Positions 2,051 to 18,916 of a stretch of DNA of 34,600 nt are shown here, in pieces. Position 1 is the first letter of the stretch; every line of letters begins with the position of its first letter. Below the pieces are notes generated by a model, which saw nothing but the letters and a program-made list of their open reading frames with translations, was not told the origin of the DNA and did not search any database. The stretch comes from Verrucomicrobia bacterium ADurb.Bin018. GTDB taxonomy: Bacteria; Verrucomicrobiota; Kiritimatiellia; CAIQIC01; Lenti-01. A program made the position numbers and the translations under genes. Location of the stretch: the NCBI GenBank assembly GCA_002071335.1, contig MWEZ01000007.1, forward strand, positions 1 through 34,600, given 5' to 3'.

Positions 2051-3190
2051 CTACTGATTGATGTGCACGACCTGCGCGGGAGGGAAGCCGTTGAACCAGG
2101 TGGATGAAGCATGGCTGTAGGCGCCGATGTTCGGGCTGTACACCAGATCGCCCAATTCCAGTTCCGGCAGCGGCTCGGCGAGGCTGATCGTGTCCAACGC
2201 GTCGCAGGTGGGCCCGAAAACCGCGCACAATTGCGTGGGTCCCTTCCGGAAGGCCTTCACCGGGTACTTGCAATGGTCGAAGAGGATGCCCGAAAACGTA
2301 TGGTACACGCCATCATTGATGTAGTAGCAGCGTTTGCCGTTGCGGTCGGCCTTGCCGATGACTTCCGCCACCAGAGTGCAAGCGGTGGCCACCAGGAAGC
2401 GGCCCGGCTCGGCCAGGATTTCCATGTCGGGCGGGAACAGCCGCGTGAACTCCGCGCGCAGCGTCCGGGCCAAGTCCCGGAATGGCCGCACATGCGCATC
2501 GTATGGCGCCGGGAACCCGCCGCCAATGTCGAGAATCCGCACCTGCCGGTGCCCACGCGACCATGCCTCTTTCATCACGCTATCGGCGAGGGCAAGGGCT
2601 TGGATGTAGTTTTGGAAATTCGTGCATTGGCTGCCGACATGAAAGCTAAGGCCTTCCACTGTCAGGCCGGCAGCGGCCGCCGCCTCGATGAGGTTGACAG
2701 CCTCGCCCGGGGGGGCGCCGAATTTCGAGGCCAGTTCCACCACCGAGCCGGTATTGGGCACGCTGAGGCGCAGAATCAAGCCGGCGTCGGGAGCGTATTG
2801 GCGGATTTTGTGCACCTCCGCCAAATTATCGTACGTCACCAATGGTTTGTACGGGTTCAGCTCCTCGAGCGTGCGCTTGTCCTTGATTGGATTGGCATAA
2901 ATGATTTTGTCCCAGATGAAGTCCTGCTGTTTTTTGGGCGGCCAGTCCTTGATGTTGTCCACCACGGTGCGGAATTCCGCAATGGAGGCGACATCGAAGC
3001 TCGCGCCGGCGCGATAGAACGTGCGGACGATCTCGGGCAAGGAATTCGCCTTGACGGCGAAATAAGGCTGTACGCGCGGCAGTTGTTGGCGAAACGTCGC
3101 CAGATTCTTGCGCAAGATGGCGTGATCCACCACAAAGAGCGGCGTGCCGTGCTGCCGGGCCAGGCGTTTGAGCAAAGCGGGCGAGGCCAT
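2051..3190 (-). CDS. Type III-fold PLP ornithine decarboxylase (eukaryotic-like)
   Basis: Decarboxylates ornithine (possibly also lysine) to putrescine. The protein is about 379 residues in the alanine-racemase-like fold III decarboxylase family. Visible motifs are the PLP lysine K47 in YFAVKAN, HVGSQ, the phosphate-binding DIGGGFP, EPGR, and the ornithine decarboxylase signature GPTCDALD with the active-site Cys-Asp donated across the dimer. The C-terminal block is SSTWFNGF. The Cys-Asp motif favours ornithine decarboxylase over carboxynorspermidine decarboxylase. I place the start at ATG 3190, four bases after the upstream gene's stop, with AAGG about 8-11 bases before it. Longer frames begin at TTG 3229 or ATG 3214 inside the upstream gene and lack a ribosome-binding site. 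It is the fourth gene of the polyamine cluster. Confidence 0.88.
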   Translation of the reverse strand: MASPALLKRLARQHGTPLFVVDHAILRKNLATFRQQLPRVQPYFAVKANSLPEIVRTFYRAGASFDVASIAEFRTVVDNIKDWPPKKQQDFIWDKIIYANPIKDKRTLEELNPYKPLVTYDNLAEVHKIRQYAPDAGLILRLSVPNTGSVVELASKFGAPPGEAVNLIEAAAAAGLTVEGLSFHVGSQCTNFQNYIQALALADSVMKEAWSRGHRQVRILDIGGGFPAPYDAHVRPFRDLARTLRAEFTRLFPPDMEILAEPGRFLVATACTLVAEVIGKADRNGKRCYYINDGVYHTFSGILFDHCKYPVKAFRKGPTQLCAVFGPTCDALDTISLAEPLPELELGDLVYSPNIGAYSHASSTWFNGFPPAQVVHINQ

Positions 3191-3194
3191 GGGT

Positions 3195-4367
3195 TCAACC
3201 TTGGCGCGGGGCATCGGGATTATTGGCAAAAAAGACGCGCGTCAGCCGCTTCATCATGGCGCCCCGCTGGTCGTAGAGCCGTTTCAGCTTGCGCGGCTTC
3301 CGTTGCGCCAGCGCGTAATGCGTCAGCAAGGGCAGGCCGACGGTGGAGTCGAGATAGGCCACGACGGCATCGGGTAGTTGGTTCGGGTCCACCTTGCCCC
3401 AACTGACGGCCTCGGAAGGCGTCGCCCCGGAGAGGCCGCCGGTATCGGGCCGCGCGTCGGTGAATTGCAGAAAATAGTCATGACCGACCTCGGGAATGCG
3501 GAGCACTTCCTGGATTTGCGGTTCGGTCTGGAGCGTAAAGTTCTTGGGCGAGCCGCCGCCCACCAACACCACGCCGGTTTTTTTGCGGCGCTGCTTGGCA
3601 TCCAGCACGATGGCCGTGCTTTCGTTGACGTCAATGCTGGGGTTGATCCGCAGTTTGTTGCCGCACAACTCCACGCCGGCGATGTTCATGCCGATGGTCG
3701 AATCGCCGGGCGATGAACAAAAGCAAGGCACGCCGGCGCGGTAGGCCGCGGCCAGGATGGAAGCGTCCTGCCGGCCGGTCTGCTCCTCGAATTGCGCGCA
3801 ATAGCGGCCAAGCAGATAGTGCAATTCCGCTGTGCCCATCTCTTTTTGAAATTCCGGCTGCACAAGCATCTGGCGTAGCACGTCGTCGGTGCGCATCAAC
3901 ACGTCGTTATAGTCGAGGAAGATGTCGTAAATGCGCACAACGCCCAAGCGGCGCAGTTCGGGATCCCGGACGGCGGCCGAACCCTTCCAGAGGGGCAGGT
4001 TCATCGCGTGGTGCATGTCGTGGTAGAGATTGGCGCCAGTGGATACGATCCAATCCACGAAGCCGGCCTTAATCAGCGGCACCACGGCCGCCGAACCCAG
4101 ACCAGCCGGAGTCAGCGCGCCGGCCAAACTCATGCCGACCGTCACGTCATCGCGGGCCAGCATCTTCTCGGTGAACAGGCGGCAGCCTTCCTGCAGTCGC
4201 GCGGCATTATAGGCCAGAAACGTGTGGTTGATCAGGTCGGGCAGCGACTCCCGGCCGGTAATCGGCGAAGGCAGAATGCGCTTGCCGCTTAGGAATCGCT
4301 TCTTGCCCGCCGCAAACTGGTGCGGGTATTGGCTGACGAATTTTTTGGGCAATTTGATCGTGCTCAT
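3195..4367 (-). CDS. speY: Deoxyhypusine synthase-like protein, probable homospermidine synthase (SpeY type)
   Basis: The 390-residue protein belongs to the deoxyhypusine synthase family, but bacteria have no eIF5A to modify. In Anabaena a homologue (SpeY) makes homospermidine by NAD-dependent aminobutyl transfer, and the same role is inferred here. The catalytic lysine is K325 in the conserved block SEAVSWGK. Other family signatures are the N-terminal [25 protein letters not shown], and the NAD-site [18 protein letters not shown] lies seven bases before ATG 4367. The gene sits 22 bases after speB and 4 bases before the ornithine decarboxylase, so both putrescine-forming routes flank the enzyme that would consume putrescine. 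The product (homospermidine or another aminobutylated amine) cannot be told from sequence. Confidence 0.85.
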
Positions 4368-4389
4368 TTTGGGTTCTCCTTGGCAGGTT

Positions 4390-5313
4390 TCAATGTTGGC
4401 GGGACGGTCGCTGATATAAGGCTTGGACGATGATGTTGTGCACCAATTTGGCGGCGAGGAAATCCGGCCCCTTCATACCCGGGAGCGGCGCCAGTTCCAC
4501 CACATCGCAGACCGGCAAAGATGCGGCCTCGCGGCAAACCACGCGCACCACGGCCATGATATCCGCCCAAGACAATCCCCCAGGCTCGGGCGTGCCGACT
4601 GCCGGCATGATGCTCGGGTCAAGGCCATCCAAGTCCACCGTCAGATAGACCGTCCGCCCGCGCACGTAAGCGGCCAGATCATTCAACCAGCCGCGGTCCG
4701 CCAACGCCTCCTCCGCGAAGACGGTATGCACGCGGTCGGTGCTGCGGCGGAAATGTTCTTCGCCGGCCGACAAATTACGAATGCCGATCTGGAAAAGCGG
4801 GGAGACTTCCGCGATGCGCCGCGCGGCGCAGGCGTGGCTGTAGCGGCTGCCTTCGTATTCCTCCCGCAAATCGGCATGCGCATCCACATGCACCGTCACA
4901 AAATCCCGGATGCCGGCCCGGACCATGCCGCGGGCGATGCCGCCTGAAATCGAGTGTTCGCCACCCAGCGCCACCAATAACTCCGGCGCCGGGGAGCCGG
5001 TGAGAATTCCCGCCACGGCTTCGTCAATGGCATTCACCATGGCTTCCGGCGAACGATGGTCCAGCCCCAGCGGTGGCAGCGTATGGATGCCAATGGCCAG
5101 TGCCGGCTCGGTGTTGAATTCGCGGTCGAACCACTCCACTTGGCGGGAGGCCGCGATGATGGCGGCCGGCCCCTCGCGCGTCCCGGCGCCGTAGGAGGTG
5201 GTGCCCTCGTAGGGAATGGGCAAAACCCAGGCGCGGGCCCGCTCGGGGGTAGTCGCCTCGGCCGGCAATCCCAGGAAATTCCATGGCGATTGGAAACGGC
5301 TCAAATCCGTCAT
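4390..5313 (-). CDS. speB: Agmatinase (agmatine ureohydrolase)
   Basis: Hydrolyses agmatine to putrescine and urea using a binuclear Mn centre. The protein is 307 residues in the arginase/ureohydrolase family. All metal-binding motifs are present: GGEH (His120), DAHAD (144-148) and DLDGLDP (Asp227, Asp229), followed by TPEPGGLSW and the VVELAP segment. The longer frame to 5397 begins at TTG and encodes a Pro-rich stretch over a hairpin. ATG 5313 has GGAG eight bases upstream and matches the family N-terminus. It lies between speA, which supplies agmatine, and the SpeY-type gene, which would use putrescine. Guanidinobutyrase or related activity is possible, but the neighbours favour agmatinase. 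Confidence 0.93.
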
Positions 5314-5356
5314 GTCGGCGCTCCGTGGTTTGGGTGGTGGGGGTTCATGGTTTGGC

Positions 5357-5404
5357 GAACCGGCCCGCGCGCCGGCGAAAACCGCCGGCGCCGGCAACCG
5401 GTTC
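5357..5404 (-). promoter_or_regulatory. Strong two-part hairpin between speA and speB
   Basis: An inner perfect stem GCGCCGGCG/CGCCGGCGC (5369-5377, 5383-5391) with a 5-base loop is enclosed by an outer GAACCGG/CCGGTTC pair (5357-5363, 5398-5404) that overlaps the speA stop codon. No T-run follows on the minus strand. It may limit read-through or protect the speA mRNA end, setting different levels of SpeA and SpeB. That is inference. Confidence 0.5.
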
Positions 5405-7328
5405 AGGTTTCAAAATAGGTGTAGCCGCGCAATCCATTTTCATAGGCATCGAGAATTTCCCGCCGTTCCGTCGCGGAAATCCGTTTTTGGCGAACGGCTT
5501 CCTCAGCCAGCTCGCGGAACCGCGCCAACAACCCCTGCGGATTATATTCCACATAGCTGAGTACATCGCCGACGCTATCCCCATCGAATTCCTCCGCGTA
5601 GGTAATCTCGCCGGCGTCATCCACATGGATGCTGGCCACATTGGTATCGCCAAACAAGTTGTGCAAGTCACCCAGGGTCTCCTGATAGGCACCCACCAGG
5701 AAAATCGCCAGAATGTAGTCTTCATCCGGGCCAACGCCATGCACCGGCAGCGCGCCGCGGTTGTCGGGCATGCTGACAAAGTGGTCAATCTTGCCGTCAC
5801 AGTCGCAGGTAATGTCCGAGAGCACCGCCAGCCGGGTGGGTTTTTCGTTAAGCCGCTGGATGGGCATCACCGGGAAAAGCTGGTCAATGGCCCAACTGTC
5901 AGGCAGCGATTGGAAGATACTGAAGTTGCAATAGTAGATGTCGGCCATAAGTTCTTCGAGATCGCGCATGTCATCGGGCACAAAGCGCAACTTGGGCACC
6001 TCGGCTTTGATGCGCGTGAGAATGTGCCAGAAAAGACGGTCGGCCACCGCGTGCTGGCGCAAGGTGATGTCGCCATGTTTGAAGGCCTTCTGGATTTCCT
6101 CGCGGTAAAAAATGGCGTCGTTGTAGAATTCCCCGAGGTTGCGCGTGCGCAGATTGGCGGCCACTTCCATCAGGTTGCGGATGGGTTCCGGAATCGGTTT
6201 GGGCAGCGGCTTTGGGGGATCGGGCACTTCAATGGCGCGGGTGTTGAGCACGTTGACCAGCAGCACCGAATAATAGCCAACCAACGCGCGGCCGGATTCG
6301 CTGATCAAGACCGGATGCGGCACGCCGGACTTGTCGCAAATGTCCATCACGCCTTCGACGACATCGGCCGCATATTCGGCCACATCGTAGTTGGCACTGC
6401 TGGCGCAATTGCACCGGGAACCGTCATAATCAATGGCGAGGCCGCCGCCGATATCGAGAATGCCCATCTTGGCGCCTTCCTTCACCAAACCGGTGTAGTA
6501 TTGGGCGGCTTCGCGCACGGCCTCGCGAATTTCACGGATGTTGGGCACCTGCGAGCCGAGATGGTAATGCACCAATTCGAGGCAATCGAGCATTCCCAAC
6601 TCGCGCAGCCGGTCCACCGCGGCGATCACTTGCGGCGGCGTCAGGCCGAAGACGCTCCCCTCGCCCCCTGATTCCGCCCACTTGCCGCCAACGGAACTAG
6701 CCAGCTTGACGCGAATGCCAATGCGGGGCCGGATGTTTTGTTTGGCCGCGCGCTCCAACAGCAGATCCAATTCCCCCGGCATCTCCAGCACCAGAATCGT
6801 CTGCAAACCCATCTTCAGCGAGAACAGCGCCAGATCAATGAATTCCGCGTCCTTATAGCCGTTGCAAATGATGTAGGCCGCGGGATCATGCAAGTAACCC
6901 AGCGCGGCGATCAGTTCCGCCTTCGATCCTGCTTCCAAGCCATGGTGAAATGGCGCGCCCAGCCGGACCACATCCGCCACTGTTTGATGTTGTTGATTGA
7001 CCTTGATGGGATACACGCCGCGATAACTCCCGGCATAACCAGAGTCGGCAATCGCTTTGGCAAAGGCCTCGTTGATGGCACGAATGCGCGCCGCCAGCAA
7101 ATCACTGAATCGCAGCAACACCGGCAGACTGAACCCACGTTGGTACAGCCCCCGCACAATGTCATGAAACTTGACGCTGACCGGTCCCTGTTGGTTTTGC
7201 AGTTTGACCGCCGCAAAACCATCCTCGGTAATGTGAAAATAGCCGTTGCCCCACGCTTCTACGCCATACAATTCGCTGCTGCGAATGTTGTCCCAGCCAT
7301 CCAACGCTTCCGTCAATCCGCGCGACAT
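5403..7328 (-). CDS. speA: Biosynthetic arginine decarboxylase
   Basis: PLP enzyme that converts arginine to agmatine, the first step of the arginine route to putrescine. The 641-residue length is typical of SpeA. PLP-binding K109 lies in VYPIKVNQQ. HYHLGSQ (about 254-260), DIGGGLAIDYDGS (about 292-304) and SESGRA follow. The active-site cysteine region is ITCDCDGKIDHF (about 506-517). The C-terminal block (LVGAYQETLGDLHNLFGD, then ASIHVDDAGE) is also the family pattern. ATG 7328 is chosen over the longer frame at 7373 because GGAGAACGGAACAAG precedes it. It is the first gene of the cluster speA-speB-speY-odc. A 15-base palindrome lies in its leader. Confidence 0.96.
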   Translation of the reverse strand: MSRGLTEALDGWDNIRSSELYGVEAWGNGYFHITEDGFAAVKLQNQQGPVSVKFHDIVRGLYQRGFSLPVLLRFSDLLAARIRAINEAFAKAIADSGYAGSYRGVYPIKVNQQHQTVADVVRLGAPFHHGLEAGSKAELIAALGYLHDPAAYIICNGYKDAEFIDLALFSLKMGLQTILVLEMPGELDLLLERAAKQNIRPRIGIRVKLASSVGGKWAESGGEGSVFGLTPPQVIAAVDRLRELGMLDCLELVHYHLGSQVPNIREIREAVREAAQYYTGLVKEGAKMGILDIGGGLAIDYDGSRCNCASSANYDVAEYAADVVEGVMDICDKSGVPHPVLISESGRALVGYYSVLLVNVLNTRAIEVPDPPKPLPKPIPEPIRNLMEVAANLRTRNLGEFYNDAIFYREEIQKAFKHGDITLRQHAVADRLFWHILTRIKAEVPKLRFVPDDMRDLEELMADIYYCNFSIFQSLPDSWAIDQLFPVMPIQRLNEKPTRLAVLSDITCDCDGKIDHFVSMPDNRGALPVHGVGPDEDYILAIFLVGAYQETLGDLHNLFGDTNVASIHVDDAGEITYAEEFDGDSVGDVLSYVEYNPQGLLARFRELAEEAVRQKRISATERREILDAYENGLRGYTYFET

Positions 7329-7369
7329 CTTGTTCCGTTCTCCTCGATCACGGTTTATTTGGTCAGATT

Positions 7370-7384
7370 CCACAGGCCCTGTGG
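7370..7384. promoter_or_regulatory. Perfect palindrome upstream of speA
   Basis: CCACAGG-C-CCTGTGG is a perfect 7-bp inverted repeat with a single central base, about 42 bases before the speA start. It could be an operator or a leader hairpin. No clear sigma70 promoter was found for speA, so its position relative to the transcription start is unknown. Confidence 0.35.
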
Positions 7385-15517: not shown

Positions 15518-16828
15518 TTAGCTGGGCGGGGTGAAGCGGATTTTGCCGGCGCGAGCGTGGCCGTCGAGGCCTTCCACCTGCCCCATGATTTCGATGAGCG
15601 GCAGGGTCTCCAAGAGATCAGCGCGGGTGAAAGCAATGACGCTGGAGCGCTTGCGGAAAGAATCCACGGAGAGCCCCGAGAAAAACGCAGCGGTGCCACC
15701 GGTGGGCAGCACGTGGCTTGGGCCGGCCACAAAATCGCCGGCACTTTCCGGTGTCCAAGGGCCAACGAAAATCGCGCCGGCATTTTTGACTTTCTGCAGC
15801 CAGCGGCGCGGCTCCTTGGTCATGATTTCCAGATGCTCCGGCGCGAACCGGTTGATGAGGTCCATGCCGGTATCCAGCGTATCGGCTACCACGAACATTG
15901 CGCCGGCGGCAGCAGCTACTTCGATGGCTGCCCGGCGAGAGAGCGACTCAATCTGTCGTTGCATTTCCGCCAGCACCTTGGAGGCCATGCTCATGTAGGG
16001 CGTCACCAGCAGGGCCTTTTCGTGGCCGGTGCCGTGTTCCAATTGCGAAATCAGATCGGCCGCGACGTGCGCCGGCACGGCGGTTTCGTCGGCCAGCACG
16101 GCGATTTCGCTGGGGCCGGCCACCATGTCGAGGTCCACATCGCCATACACCAGCTTTTTGGCGGCGGTGACATACGGGCCGCCGGGGCCAACAATTTTCT
16201 GTACCTTGCGGATGGTGTTGGTGCCGTAGGCCATCGCACCGATGGCCTGGATGCCGCCAATACGGTAAATCTCGGTGGCGCCGGCCACTTCGAGCGCGTG
16301 CAGCAGATAAGGGTTGACCTTGCCTTGCTTGTCGCACGGGGTGCAGGCCACGATCTCCGGCACGCCGGCCACCTTGGCCAGCGAGAGGCTCATCAGCGCG
16401 GTGGAGACCAGCGGCGCGGCGCCGCCGGGGATATAGGCGCCGACGCGCGCCAGCGGCGTGAACCGCTCGCCGAGCACGCCGCCCTTGGGCGAGGCCATGC
16501 TCCAATCCTTGCGCATGCCGGCCTTGCCAAACCGCACGATGCGCGTGAAAATTTCCGCCGCGCTGCGCTTGAACACAAGGTCCACCTCGGCAGAGGCGGC
16601 AAGGACTTCCTCGCGCGGCACCGCAAACTTGGCCACTGGCAACTGCAAGCCGTTGAATTCCTTGGTGTACTTCTGCACCGCCCGGTCGCCGGTGGCGCGG
16701 ATGTCCGCCAGCACGCGGCGCGCCGTTTCCTCGGCCTTGGGATCAAACGCGGGCCGCAGCAAAAATTTCTCCAATTCAGGCACAGCCTTGTGCGGAGAAA
16801 ATTTTACAATGGGAATACTCAGGCTCAT
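15518..16828 (-). CDS. hisD: Histidinol dehydrogenase
   Basis: Catalyses the last two oxidations of histidine synthesis (histidinol to histidine) with NAD and a zinc ion. The 436-residue protein shows the family blocks RVGAYIPGG, VAGPSEIAVLAD, the zinc/substrate segment SQLEHGTGHE, APEHLEI with the catalytic Glu-His, and AGDFVAGPSHVLPTGG. ATG 16828 has GAGG seven bases upstream; the slightly longer frame begins with TTG at 16834. It is the last gene of the prmA-exbB-exbD-tonB-like operon, 13 bases after the zinc-ribbon gene. hisG lies 4.4 kb away on the other strand, so the histidine genes are dispersed here. Confidence 0.97.
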   Translation of the reverse strand: MSLSIPIVKFSPHKAVPELEKFLLRPAFDPKAEETARRVLADIRATGDRAVQKYTKEFNGLQLPVAKFAVPREEVLAASAEVDLVFKRSAAEIFTRIVRFGKAGMRKDWSMASPKGGVLGERFTPLARVGAYIPGGAAPLVSTALMSLSLAKVAGVPEIVACTPCDKQGKVNPYLLHALEVAGATEIYRIGGIQAIGAMAYGTNTIRKVQKIVGPGGPYVTAAKKLVYGDVDLDMVAGPSEIAVLADETAVPAHVAADLISQLEHGTGHEKALLVTPYMSMASKVLAEMQRQIESLSRRAAIEVAAAAGAMFVVADTLDTGMDLINRFAPEHLEIMTKEPRRWLQKVKNAGAIFVGPWTPESAGDFVAGPSHVLPTGGTAAFFSGLSVDSFRKRSSVIAFTRADLLETLPLIEIMGQVEGLDGHARAGKIRFTPPS

Positions 16829-16841
16829 GGTCAACCTCGCT

Positions 16842-17081
16842 TCAAAAACTTCGGGTGCTTTCGTTCATCGTGCCACATTTTTCGCATTCGGCCATCGGAA
16901 TGTTCCGGTGGTCCAGATAGACATGCCCGCACCCTGTGCAACGGAACACGAAGGGCGCCACGCGGTGGCGCGGGACATGCCGGTACCTGCGCACGGAATA
17001 GTATAGCGTGATCAAGAAGATCAGCGCCAGATGGCTGACGAAAATAACGGCGAGCCAATCGGGCAGTGGGAGCGGAATCAT
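16842..17081 (-). CDS. Small membrane-anchored zinc-ribbon protein, unknown function
   Basis: A 79-residue protein with one N-terminal membrane helix (about residues 9-28, LAVIFVSHLALIFLITLYYS), a basic linker (VRRYRHVPRHR), and a C-terminal zinc ribbon made of CTGC and CEKC separated by 15 residues. The ribbon would face the cytoplasm if the basic linker follows the positive-inside rule. ATG 17081 overlaps the stop of the TonB-like gene as ATGA and has GGAG upstream, so the two are translationally coupled. I do not recognise a named family. The context suggests an accessory part of the ExbBD-TonB-like complex or simply an operon passenger. Confidence 0.75.
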   Translation of the reverse strand: MIPLPLPDWLAVIFVSHLALIFLITLYYSVRRYRHVPRHRVAPFVFRCTGCGHVYLDHRNIPMAECEKCGTMNESTRSF

Positions 17082-17815
17082 GGCTCCGCTCCCGTGGCGG
17101 GGCCGGGCCGCACCCACGCCACCGTGCCCATTCGCGGGGCATTGGGTTCCAGCAGCCGCCACGCGCTGACCGAACGCAGCAGCCGCTGATCCAAGGCCGG
17201 CCAGCCGCTGCTTTCATCCAGCAGGACGGCACGCGGCGTGCCGCGTTCATCGAACTGCAATTCCACCCGCGCGCGCCATGCGGCGTTGGTCCAGTCGTCA
17301 AAGTTCAGGTCAATGCCCGCAAACAACCGCGACTCCCATCCCGGTGAAAAAAGGAGGCGCGCGGACTCGCGCGTGGCGCGGCGCTTGGTCAACACTCCGC
17401 CGGCGGCGGCGCCATCATCCGCGCGCGGCAACTGCCAGCCCCATTCGTCGGCGCTGGATTCCACAACCGGCTCCGGCAACAGATAGGCATAGGCCGGGCG
17501 CTCCATGTGCACCGGGGGCAGCAGCTCCACCTTTTCCCGGCGCAAGGCATGCGTGAAACCGGCGGGCGTGGACAACGCAAACGCTGCCGGGGTGTAGAGC
17601 GTACGGATATCCCATGCGGCGGGCGGCGTGGCGCGCCACCACGTCATGCACGTTGGCGCGGGGCGTTCGGGTCCCGCCGGCGTCGGCGCCAAGCGAAACA
17701 GCAGCGCCATCCCGCCCAGCCAAAACGCCACAAAAACGCCGGCCCAGCGCCAGCCGGTGCGGCAAAACACCTGCCAGCGGCGGGCGGCGGCGGAATGGGA
17801 GCGCAGCTTCGGCAT
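17078..17815 (-). CDS. Divergent TonB-like energy-transducer protein
   Basis: A 245-residue protein with a single N-terminal membrane anchor (about 24-43) after a basic cytoplasmic tail, a long periplasmic part rich in Pro and Ala, and a C-terminal segment VELQFDERGTPRAVLL-DESSGWPALDQRLLRSV (about 190-225) ending in AWRLLEP. That pattern (beta-strand, Gly turn, SSG, xxLDxxxLxxVxxWxxxP) matches the TonB C-terminal domain. It follows exbD by ten bases and exbB before that, the usual TonB-system order. It lacks the long Pro-Lys/Pro-Glu spacer of classical TonB. The start is ATG 17815; the longer frame to 17896 runs into exbD. Likely role: passing ExbBD energy to an outer-membrane partner. Confidence 0.65.
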   Translation of the reverse strand: MPKLRSHSAAARRWQVFCRTGWRWAGVFVAFWLGGMALLFRLAPTPAGPERPAPTCMTWWRATPPAAWDIRTLYTPAAFALSTPAGFTHALRREKVELLPPVHMERPAYAYLLPEPVVESSADEWGWQLPRADDGAAAGGVLTKRRATRESARLLFSPGWESRLFAGIDLNFDDWTNAAWRARVELQFDERGTPRAVLLDESSGWPALDQRLLRSVSAWRLLEPNAPRMGTVAWVRPGPATGAEP

Positions 17816-17825
17816 GCCCCATGCC

Positions 17826-18287
17826 CTATGGCGCCACCGGCGGCGGACGCGTGGCCAGAACCACATTCTGGATGCCGGCTTCGGCAGCCAGGGCATACAC
17901 CTGCATCAAGGTGCCATACGGGGTGCCCTCGTCCGCCTCAACCAGCAGCGCCGAATCGGCCGGCTCATCGCTGCTCTTGGCCAACGCCGCGCCCAAGTCG
18001 GCCAACTCCATCTTCTCGTCGTTGTAAAAGATCAGGCCGCCTTGCGCCAGCGTCAGCACCCGCGCGCCATAGGGCGCGCCGCCGGTGAATGGCGCGGTGG
18101 GCAGCTCCACCCGCACCCCCGGTTGCAAAATGAAGCGCGACGACAAAAACATGAACATCATCACCAGCGCCATCACGTTGAGCAGCGCAGTGACTTCGAT
18201 GGGCCCCACGGCGCGCCGGAAGCGCCCTTTAAAGCGCCGACGCACGCTGCGAAATTGCAGTTGGATGGGCTGGTCCGGGATTCTCAT
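17826..18287 (-). CDS. exbD: ExbD/TolR-family protein lacking the membrane aspartate
   Basis: ExbD/TolR proteins form the proton-driven stator partner of ExbB/TolQ. This 153-residue protein has a basic N-terminus, one membrane helix (about 32-52) and a periplasmic domain with GIQNVVLAT near the end. The family block TPLIDVxxxLLxFFM reads TALLNVMALVMMFMF, so the essential proton-carrying aspartate is Asn37 (codon AAC read directly) and the preceding proline is Ala. Glu31 lies just before the helix. The start ATG 18287 overlaps the exbB stop as ATGA. The protein may have lost proton coupling or use another residue. Family membership is clear from size, position and the rest of the motif. Confidence 0.8.
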   Translation of the reverse strand: MRIPDQPIQLQFRSVRRRFKGRFRRAVGPIEVTALLNVMALVMMFMFLSSRFILQPGVRVELPTAPFTGGAPYGARVLTLAQGGLIFYNDEKMELADLGAALAKSSDEPADSALLVEADEGTPYGTLMQVYALAAEAGIQNVVLATRPPPVAP

Positions 18288-18916
18288 GCCGGCGGGGCCT
18301 CCCGGTTGCGCTTCCACTGGCGCATAAACGTGAGCAACGCCGAGGCCGAGCGCTCCATATCCAGCAAAATGGACTCCACACGCGACACCAGGAGATTGTA
18401 ACCCGCGTACGCGAGGATGGCGATAATCAAGCTCAACGCGGTGGCGGCCAGCGCGTACCAGAGCCCGCCCGTCAGGTCGGCCGACTGCACCAGCGGCGCG
18501 GCTTCCTTGGCCGCCAACAGCATTTGCATCATGCCCAAGACCGTGCCCAGAAGCCCGATCAGCGGGGTAATGCGCGCCAGCGTGGCCAGCCAGCCCAACC
18601 CGCGTTCCATGCGCGGGATTTCCTCCAAACCGGCATCCTCGATGGCGCGGCCGATTTTCTCCAAGCTGTCGTCATGGTTGAGCACGGCGGCCAGCGCGAG
18701 GCGGGCCACCGGCCCGGGGGCATCCTCGCAAAGCGCGGCCGCCTCCACGATGTTATCGCGGTTGAGGACGTTGTAAATCCCCTTGAGGAAGTCGTCCGCC
18801 GGGATTTGCGCACGGTGCAGATTGAACAGGCGTTCAAAGAACACCAGCAGGGCAAAAACGCCGCATGCCAGCAGCAACCCGATCACCAAGCCACCGTTCA
18901 CCAATACATTCCACAT
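18284..18916 (-). CDS. exbB: ExbB/TolQ/MotA-family proton-channel protein
   Basis: Inner-membrane stator subunit that energises TonB-type transport. The protein is 210 residues with three membrane segments: about 6-27, 110-132 (ITPLIGLLGTVLGMMQML) and 148-172 (LWYALAATALSLIIAILAYAGYN). The family signature TPLLGLLGTVxGM is nearly exact. ATG 18916 has GGAG about nine bases upstream; the much longer frame to 19219 lies over prmA and is not credible. It overlaps exbD by four bases and follows prmA by 74 bases, a gap with a run of nine C residues. Confidence 0.92.
   Translation of the reverse strand: MWNVLVNGGLVIGLLLACGVFALLVFFERLFNLHRAQIPADDFLKGIYNVLNRDNIVEAAALCEDAPGPVARLALAAVLNHDDSLEKIGRAIEDAGLEEIPRMERGLGWLATLARITPLIGLLGTVLGMMQMLLAAKEAAPLVQSADLTGGLWYALAATALSLIIAILAYAGYNLLVSRVESILLDMERSASALLTFMRQWKRNREAPPA

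Follow-up and report, generated by a model that had tools for sequence, protein, structure and literature searches.

A membrane aspartate is held to be the essential proton carrier in ExbD, TolR and MotB. An exbD gene that specifies asparagine at this position, within an otherwise complete ExbB-ExbD-TonB-like operon, raises the question of whether the encoded complex is still driven by protons, perhaps through another residue, or whether it has become a structural assembly. We address this question for an operon in a 34,600-nucleotide stretch of DNA (hereafter the window) from a 2.75 Mb verrucomicrobial metagenome assembly of 429 contigs, using its orthologues and paralogues in related genomes, the conservation of its partner genes and the distribution of candidate replacement carriers.

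An ExbD with asparagine at the proton-carrier position

The operon lies on the minus strand and comprises four genes. The exbB gene (18284..18916), encoding a pentamer-type subunit of 210 aa, is joined by an ATGA overlap of reading frames to exbD (17826..18287; 153 aa), which is followed by a tonB-like gene (17078..17815; 245 aa) and, through a further ATGA overlap, by a gene for a zinc-ribbon-like protein of 79 aa (16842..17081). The next gene past the operon, on the same strand, is hisD, encoding histidinol dehydrogenase (15518..16834). Elsewhere in the window, a run of adjacent genes (2051-7373) looks by eye like a polyamine set (arginine decarboxylase, agmatinase, and deoxyhypusine-synthase-like and carboxynorspermidine-decarboxylase-like genes) and, by eye only, a frame at 9-392 is similar to the C terminus of IS110-type transposases.

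The exbD product is a clear member of its family, scoring 64.8 bits against the ExbD/TolR profile PF02472 (cut-off 25.4), with a single N-terminal membrane helix (approximately residues 29-50) and an ExbD/TolR-like periplasmic domain. The best Foldseek matches of its predicted model, which is of moderate confidence (pLDDT 62), are the periplasmic domains of ExbD and TolR (E 7.5e-6 to 6e-5). The hallmark of the family, the membrane aspartate corresponding to Asp25 of ExbD, is absent: the helix reads PIEVTALLNVMALVMMFMF, and the position is occupied by Asn37 (codon AAC, 18177..18179, minus strand). Asn37 pairs with Asp25 of E. coli ExbD in MAFFT alignments and with Asp25 of Serratia ExbD (PDB chain 7ajq_F) in a phmmer alignment. 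An earlier reading of the locus from sequence only had described an ExbD lacking its proton-carrying aspartate, and both alignments bear this out.

Loss of the aspartate in the order, class and phylum

BLAST with the ExbD protein recovered orthologues at every level from the genus up to the class. The resulting alignment of homologues, a check suggested by the sequence-only reading, shows that the aspartate is missing from all 24 orthologues of the order, 22 of which have asparagine, one threonine (G005) and one alanine (G002). Paralogous ExbDs of the same order retain it in 47 of 47 cases (all six others of the window genome and 41 of 41 further proteins), which rules out aspartate loss as a general habit of ExbDs in these genomes. 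Because the residue is gone from every orthologue and kept in the paralogues, neither chance nor sequencing error accounts for the pattern, and the loss affects this orthologue specifically and is long-standing within the order. The sequence-only reading had reasoned that an aspartate in every close homologue with this operon setting would point to an error or a recent loss in one strain; instead, asparagine is conserved in the relatives, and the loss, far from being confined to a single strain or operon, is seen repeatedly in the class and also in other parts of the phylum.

Of 240 genomes sampled from the class, 220 gave a match to a profile of the orthologue at E <= 1e-14, and the weakest of these matches may be paralogues. 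Overall, the 125 class orthologues comprise 67 with aspartate, 48 with asparagine, 8 with serine and one each with threonine and alanine. These were drawn from 127 orthologous loci that were read, and they were placed on a tree built from ExbB and ExbD with the aspartate column removed; L125 was excluded, as past the second helix the ExbB in G100 seems to carry a frameshift or an alignment fault, possibly through an assembly error. At least 17 changes between aspartate and other residues are required on this tree, and 14, 11 or 7 after branches with SH-aLRT support below 80, 90 or 95, respectively, are collapsed. Aspartate is present in all three outgroups, which are TolQR-like pairs encoded by the window genome, and this makes repeated loss the likelier direction, with some gains possible. 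At the family level, aspartate is present throughout f10 (9/9), f21 (10/10) and f31 (10/10) and absent from f5 and f27, while f8, f15, f19, f23 and f28 are mixed; f19, a genus-level group, contains six aspartate and two asparagine forms.

A further 20, weaker matches were inspected, of which 19 lie outside the class. Two (L242 and L246) seem to be different paralogues, and the one class member (L241) has aspartate. Among 17 similar operons outside the class, read by eye, nine have aspartate and eight do not, the latter carrying asparagine (L237, L243, L247, L250 and L252), serine (L248 and L254) or threonine (L251).

Conservation of the operon

The genes around exbD are strongly conserved. An exbB gene lies upstream in all 127 orthologue loci and a tonB-like gene downstream in 122, and the order exbB, exbD, tonB-like gene, zinc-ribbon gene is kept in the class. 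The zinc-ribbon gene, the usual fourth member in the window and in relatives L038-L040 and L061-L074, was found by BLAST in 15 of 17 class neighbourhoods and by profile in most of the operons read outside the class; hisD follows the operon in 16 of the same 17 neighbourhoods. Between pairs of aspartate-less operons, a counting method puts dN/dS at roughly 0.02-0.27 (exbD) and 0.03-0.21 (exbB), with the tonB-like gene evolving faster (0.12-0.70). As synonymous sites are saturated in some pairs, these values were used solely to infer purifying selection, under which, by this measure, both exbB and exbD are evolving. The view that the set is maintained rather than decaying is therefore upheld by the conserved operon together with the low dN/dS. 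Literature searches, which had partial coverage, returned nothing relevant on a link between ExbD and hisD and no account of naturally aspartate-less ExbD operons or of the four-gene set. The proteins belong to known families, and the four-gene envelope system that they form across the phylum is apparently undescribed.

ExbB and its channel residues

The window ExbB scores 90 bits against the MotA_ExbB profile (PF01618; cut-off 22.9). The sequence-only reading stated that it keeps its channel signature, which holds for the equivalents of the pore threonines T148 and T181 and fails at two other positions, where tyrosine replaces E. coli Glu176 and leucine replaces Pro190. The Thr148 equivalent is present in 67/67 aspartate-bearing and 56/58 aspartate-less orthologues. 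Within the window's family, leucine stands at the Pro190 site, and the Glu176 site, which directly follows GGLW, varies greatly (Y, A, T, N, H, S, R or E) in what is otherwise the best conserved subunit. Four further ExbBs of the window genome, read by eye, have E, Q or S there, so that this site is weakly diagnostic alone. A separate difference is seen at residue 3 of ExbB (18908-18910), which is acidic in 81% of aspartate-bearing and 33% of aspartate-less orthologues.

TonB-like and zinc-ribbon partners

The third protein falls below the TonB cut-offs of both Pfam (12.8 vs 24.6) and NCBIfam (18.8 vs 27.1). It has one N-terminal transmembrane helix and, in an AlphaFold model built from 4 sequences (pLDDT 62-77 over the C-terminal domain), a long low-confidence linker followed by a strand-strand-helix-strand C-terminal domain. 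The first 12 PDB matches to this model are all TonB-type domains, with a best E of 0.0067 for what is, at pLDDT 49 overall, a weak model.

No TonB-type histidine (H20/SHLS motif) occurs in the helix predicted for the window's TonB-like protein. When helices were delimited by a simple hydrophobicity window, a histidine was found in the TonB-like helix of 39 of 64 aspartate-bearing operons vs 8 of 56 aspartate-less ones, and at least two of these eight sit at the helix edge. Contingency tables lean towards co-loss with the aspartate for both this histidine and Pro190, with the association between aspartate and histidine inflated by clade sizes. Strict co-loss of the aspartate with the TonB-like histidine, ExbB Glu176 or Pro190 was not significant in independent-pair tests, for which there were too few pairs. 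We regard these associations as a pattern that falls short of proving co-loss. In the fourth protein, a single hydrophobic N-terminal segment is combined with a CxxC...CxxC zinc-ribbon-like end, and its Pfam matches are limited to sub-threshold zinc-ribbon hits.

Receptors and other ExbDs in the same genomes

The window genome has two TonB-dependent-receptor plug matches. In a set of 28 genomes chosen as aspartate-less (27 confirmed by sequence, with G276 unread), plug matches are absent from eight, five of which are at least 90% complete. The operon is thus kept in genomes with no recognisable TonB-dependent receptor, and a role as a dedicated receptor energiser is disfavoured. Most of the aspartate-less genomes examined also encode other, aspartate-bearing ExbDs; the paralogues are only about 20-30% identical. 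In one genome, G331 (locus L282/L243; 87% complete), a single ExbD was found, the asparagine form, and no receptor plug.

Search for a replacement proton carrier

The sequence-only reading had proposed that Glu31, just before the ExbD helix, might take over proton carriage. In the window's family this position is acidic in all 14 orthologues (the divergent G002 row excluded), and the same is true of 91% of the order's tree rows, the exceptions including G018 and G022. In the class as a whole, an acid is present at position 31 in 25 of 58 aspartate-less orthologues and absent from the other 33, compared with 23 of 67 aspartate-bearing ones. It does not track the loss of the aspartate, and general compensation by this residue is therefore unsupported, leaving Glu31 as a possible substitute within the window's family.

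A new acid elsewhere in the membrane segments of ExbD or ExbB was sought as well, and none emerged as a carrier. The core of the ExbD helix has no acid in 52 of the 58 aspartate-less orthologues; in the remaining six, a helix acid lies near the periplasmic end. Across the 125 orthologues, none of the columns in ExbB hydrophobic segments is enriched in acids upon loss of the aspartate. This includes residue 131, part of the second membrane helix, where 71% of the family have an acid and the window ExbB has glutamine; the acidic fraction there is 0.33 among aspartate-less and 0.40 among aspartate-bearing orthologues. As far as these alignments go, the aspartate is not replaced by a comparable side-chain carboxylate in the ExbD helix.

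A proposed assembled but uncoupled complex and its alternatives

Since no conserved substitute carrier was found, the evidence favours a complex that assembles and is uncoupled from proton flow. In such a complex, an ExbB pentamer would surround an ExbD dimer in the inner membrane, with the TonB-like protein reaching through the periplasm and the small membrane zinc-ribbon protein joining the assembly. Asparagine, or occasionally serine, threonine or alanine, would imitate a permanently protonated aspartate, so that the complex could still assemble while proton flow would presumably no longer be turned into rotation. The uncoupled complex might then tether the inner membrane, the peptidoglycan and the outer membrane. 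With regard to the substitution itself, MotB D22N mimics the protonated state (PMC9389320), and E. coli ExbD(D25N) and TonB(H20A) are described as inactive mutants that fail to crosslink (PMC11658791). Of the options raised by the sequence-only reading, a complex that is not proton-driven and one with a structural role fit best. On sequence grounds, we lean slightly towards a Ton/Tol-type complex that is uncoupled from proton flow and serves as an envelope scaffold or tether. The broader proposal, that a verrucomicrobial branch of 5:2 motors has many times independently become a proton-independent structural complex with a TonB-like and a zinc-ribbon partner, is plausible but falls somewhat short of being probable. 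Against uncoupling, a proton or water path still in use would likewise account for the near-invariance of the ExbB T148 equivalent in aspartate-less operons, Glu31 is constant in the window's family, and aspartate-bearing ExbDs encoded elsewhere in the genome could co-assemble.

The last of these points leads to an unlikely alternative, in which the asparagine ExbD enters a mixed dimer, or its ExbB takes up an aspartate-bearing ExbD or TolR, such that one aspartate is enough and the asparagine copy is regulatory or supporting. The window genome encodes six other ExbDs, all aspartate-bearing, and for AglR, pairing with two different B subunits (AglQ and AglS) is theoretically possible (PMC9389320). 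The operon, however, supplies one ExbD together with its own ExbB, the low identity of the ExbD paralogues speaks against mixing, and G331 has the asparagine form alone, although at its level of completeness a second ExbD could be missing. Distinctly unlikely, in our estimation, is a complex still driven by protons or other ions through a different group, be it Glu31 or a polar or acidic residue at ExbB position 131. The family-wide acid at the former position, the frequent acid at the latter and the precedent of GldLM, where the carrier can reside in the pentamer subunit (PMC8986121), speak for it; yet neither acid is associated with loss of the aspartate in the way that a substitute should be, G018 and G022 lack the first and the window the second, and in GldM a glutamate likewise numbered 31 and near the helix was dispensable (PMC8986121).

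It is less probable again that the position is weakly constrained, the complex never having been strongly proton-coupled in this phylum and aspartate, asparagine and serine drifting in a near-neutral manner. Repeated changes in many families, including the mixed genus-level group f19, and the asparagine, serine and threonine forms elsewhere in the phylum are what such drift would produce, but the aspartate is fixed in three families (f10, f21 and f31) and 57 of the 58 replacements are small polar residues, which together indicate a constrained site. Finally, errors in sequencing or assembly, or decay of the operon, could be suspected, given that the window comes from a metagenome-assembled genome of 429 contigs; with the substitution shared by independent genomes, intact reading frames and low dN/dS, we reject this explanation as having almost no chance of being correct.

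Relation to known systems and implications

The operon resembles the Ton system (ExbB-ExbD-TonB) in its gene order, domain types, pore threonines and ExbD periplasmic fold and, going by the weak model, perhaps also in the C-terminal fold of the third protein. It differs in lacking ExbD Asp25, the TonB-type histidine and ExbB Glu176 and Pro190, and its type adds a zinc-ribbon gene and persists in genomes with no receptor-plug match. The subunit families are also those of TolQ-TolR-TolA, and NCBIfam ranks TolR and TolQ models over those of ExbD and ExbB, all below cut-off; on the other hand, TolR has a conserved aspartate, the window operon has no TolB or Pal, and its third protein is nearer to TonB than to TolA by fold ranking. 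GldL-GldM (PorL-PorM) is likewise a MotAB-like inner-membrane motor, with its carrier in the other subunit (GldL E49, PMC8986121), but it is a Bacteroidetes system of another architecture with strict conservation of the GldL glutamate, in contrast to the absence of any conserved carrier from our alignments. The recently described vWA-tethered TolQ-linked systems are unusual 5:2 motor relatives that also occur in Verrucomicrobia (PMC12204202); unlike the present operon, those with a trans-pore helix are described as keeping the proton-binding aspartate, and their B subunit is a vWA protein instead of ExbD (PMC12204202).

The aspartate-less operons and their aspartate-bearing sisters constitute natural pairs for asking if a 5:2 complex remains functional when no protons flow through it, and could separate the parts of the machine needed for assembly from those needed for fuel. 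Many Verrucomicrobia keep a Ton/Tol-type operon in which the aspartate has been replaced, apparently on many independent occasions, with the remaining parts still under selection, and the complex may no longer be run by protons. If the uncoupled reading is true, the operon would encode a naturally occurring "motor without fuel", made up of ExbB and ExbD together with TonB-like and zinc-ribbon proteins.
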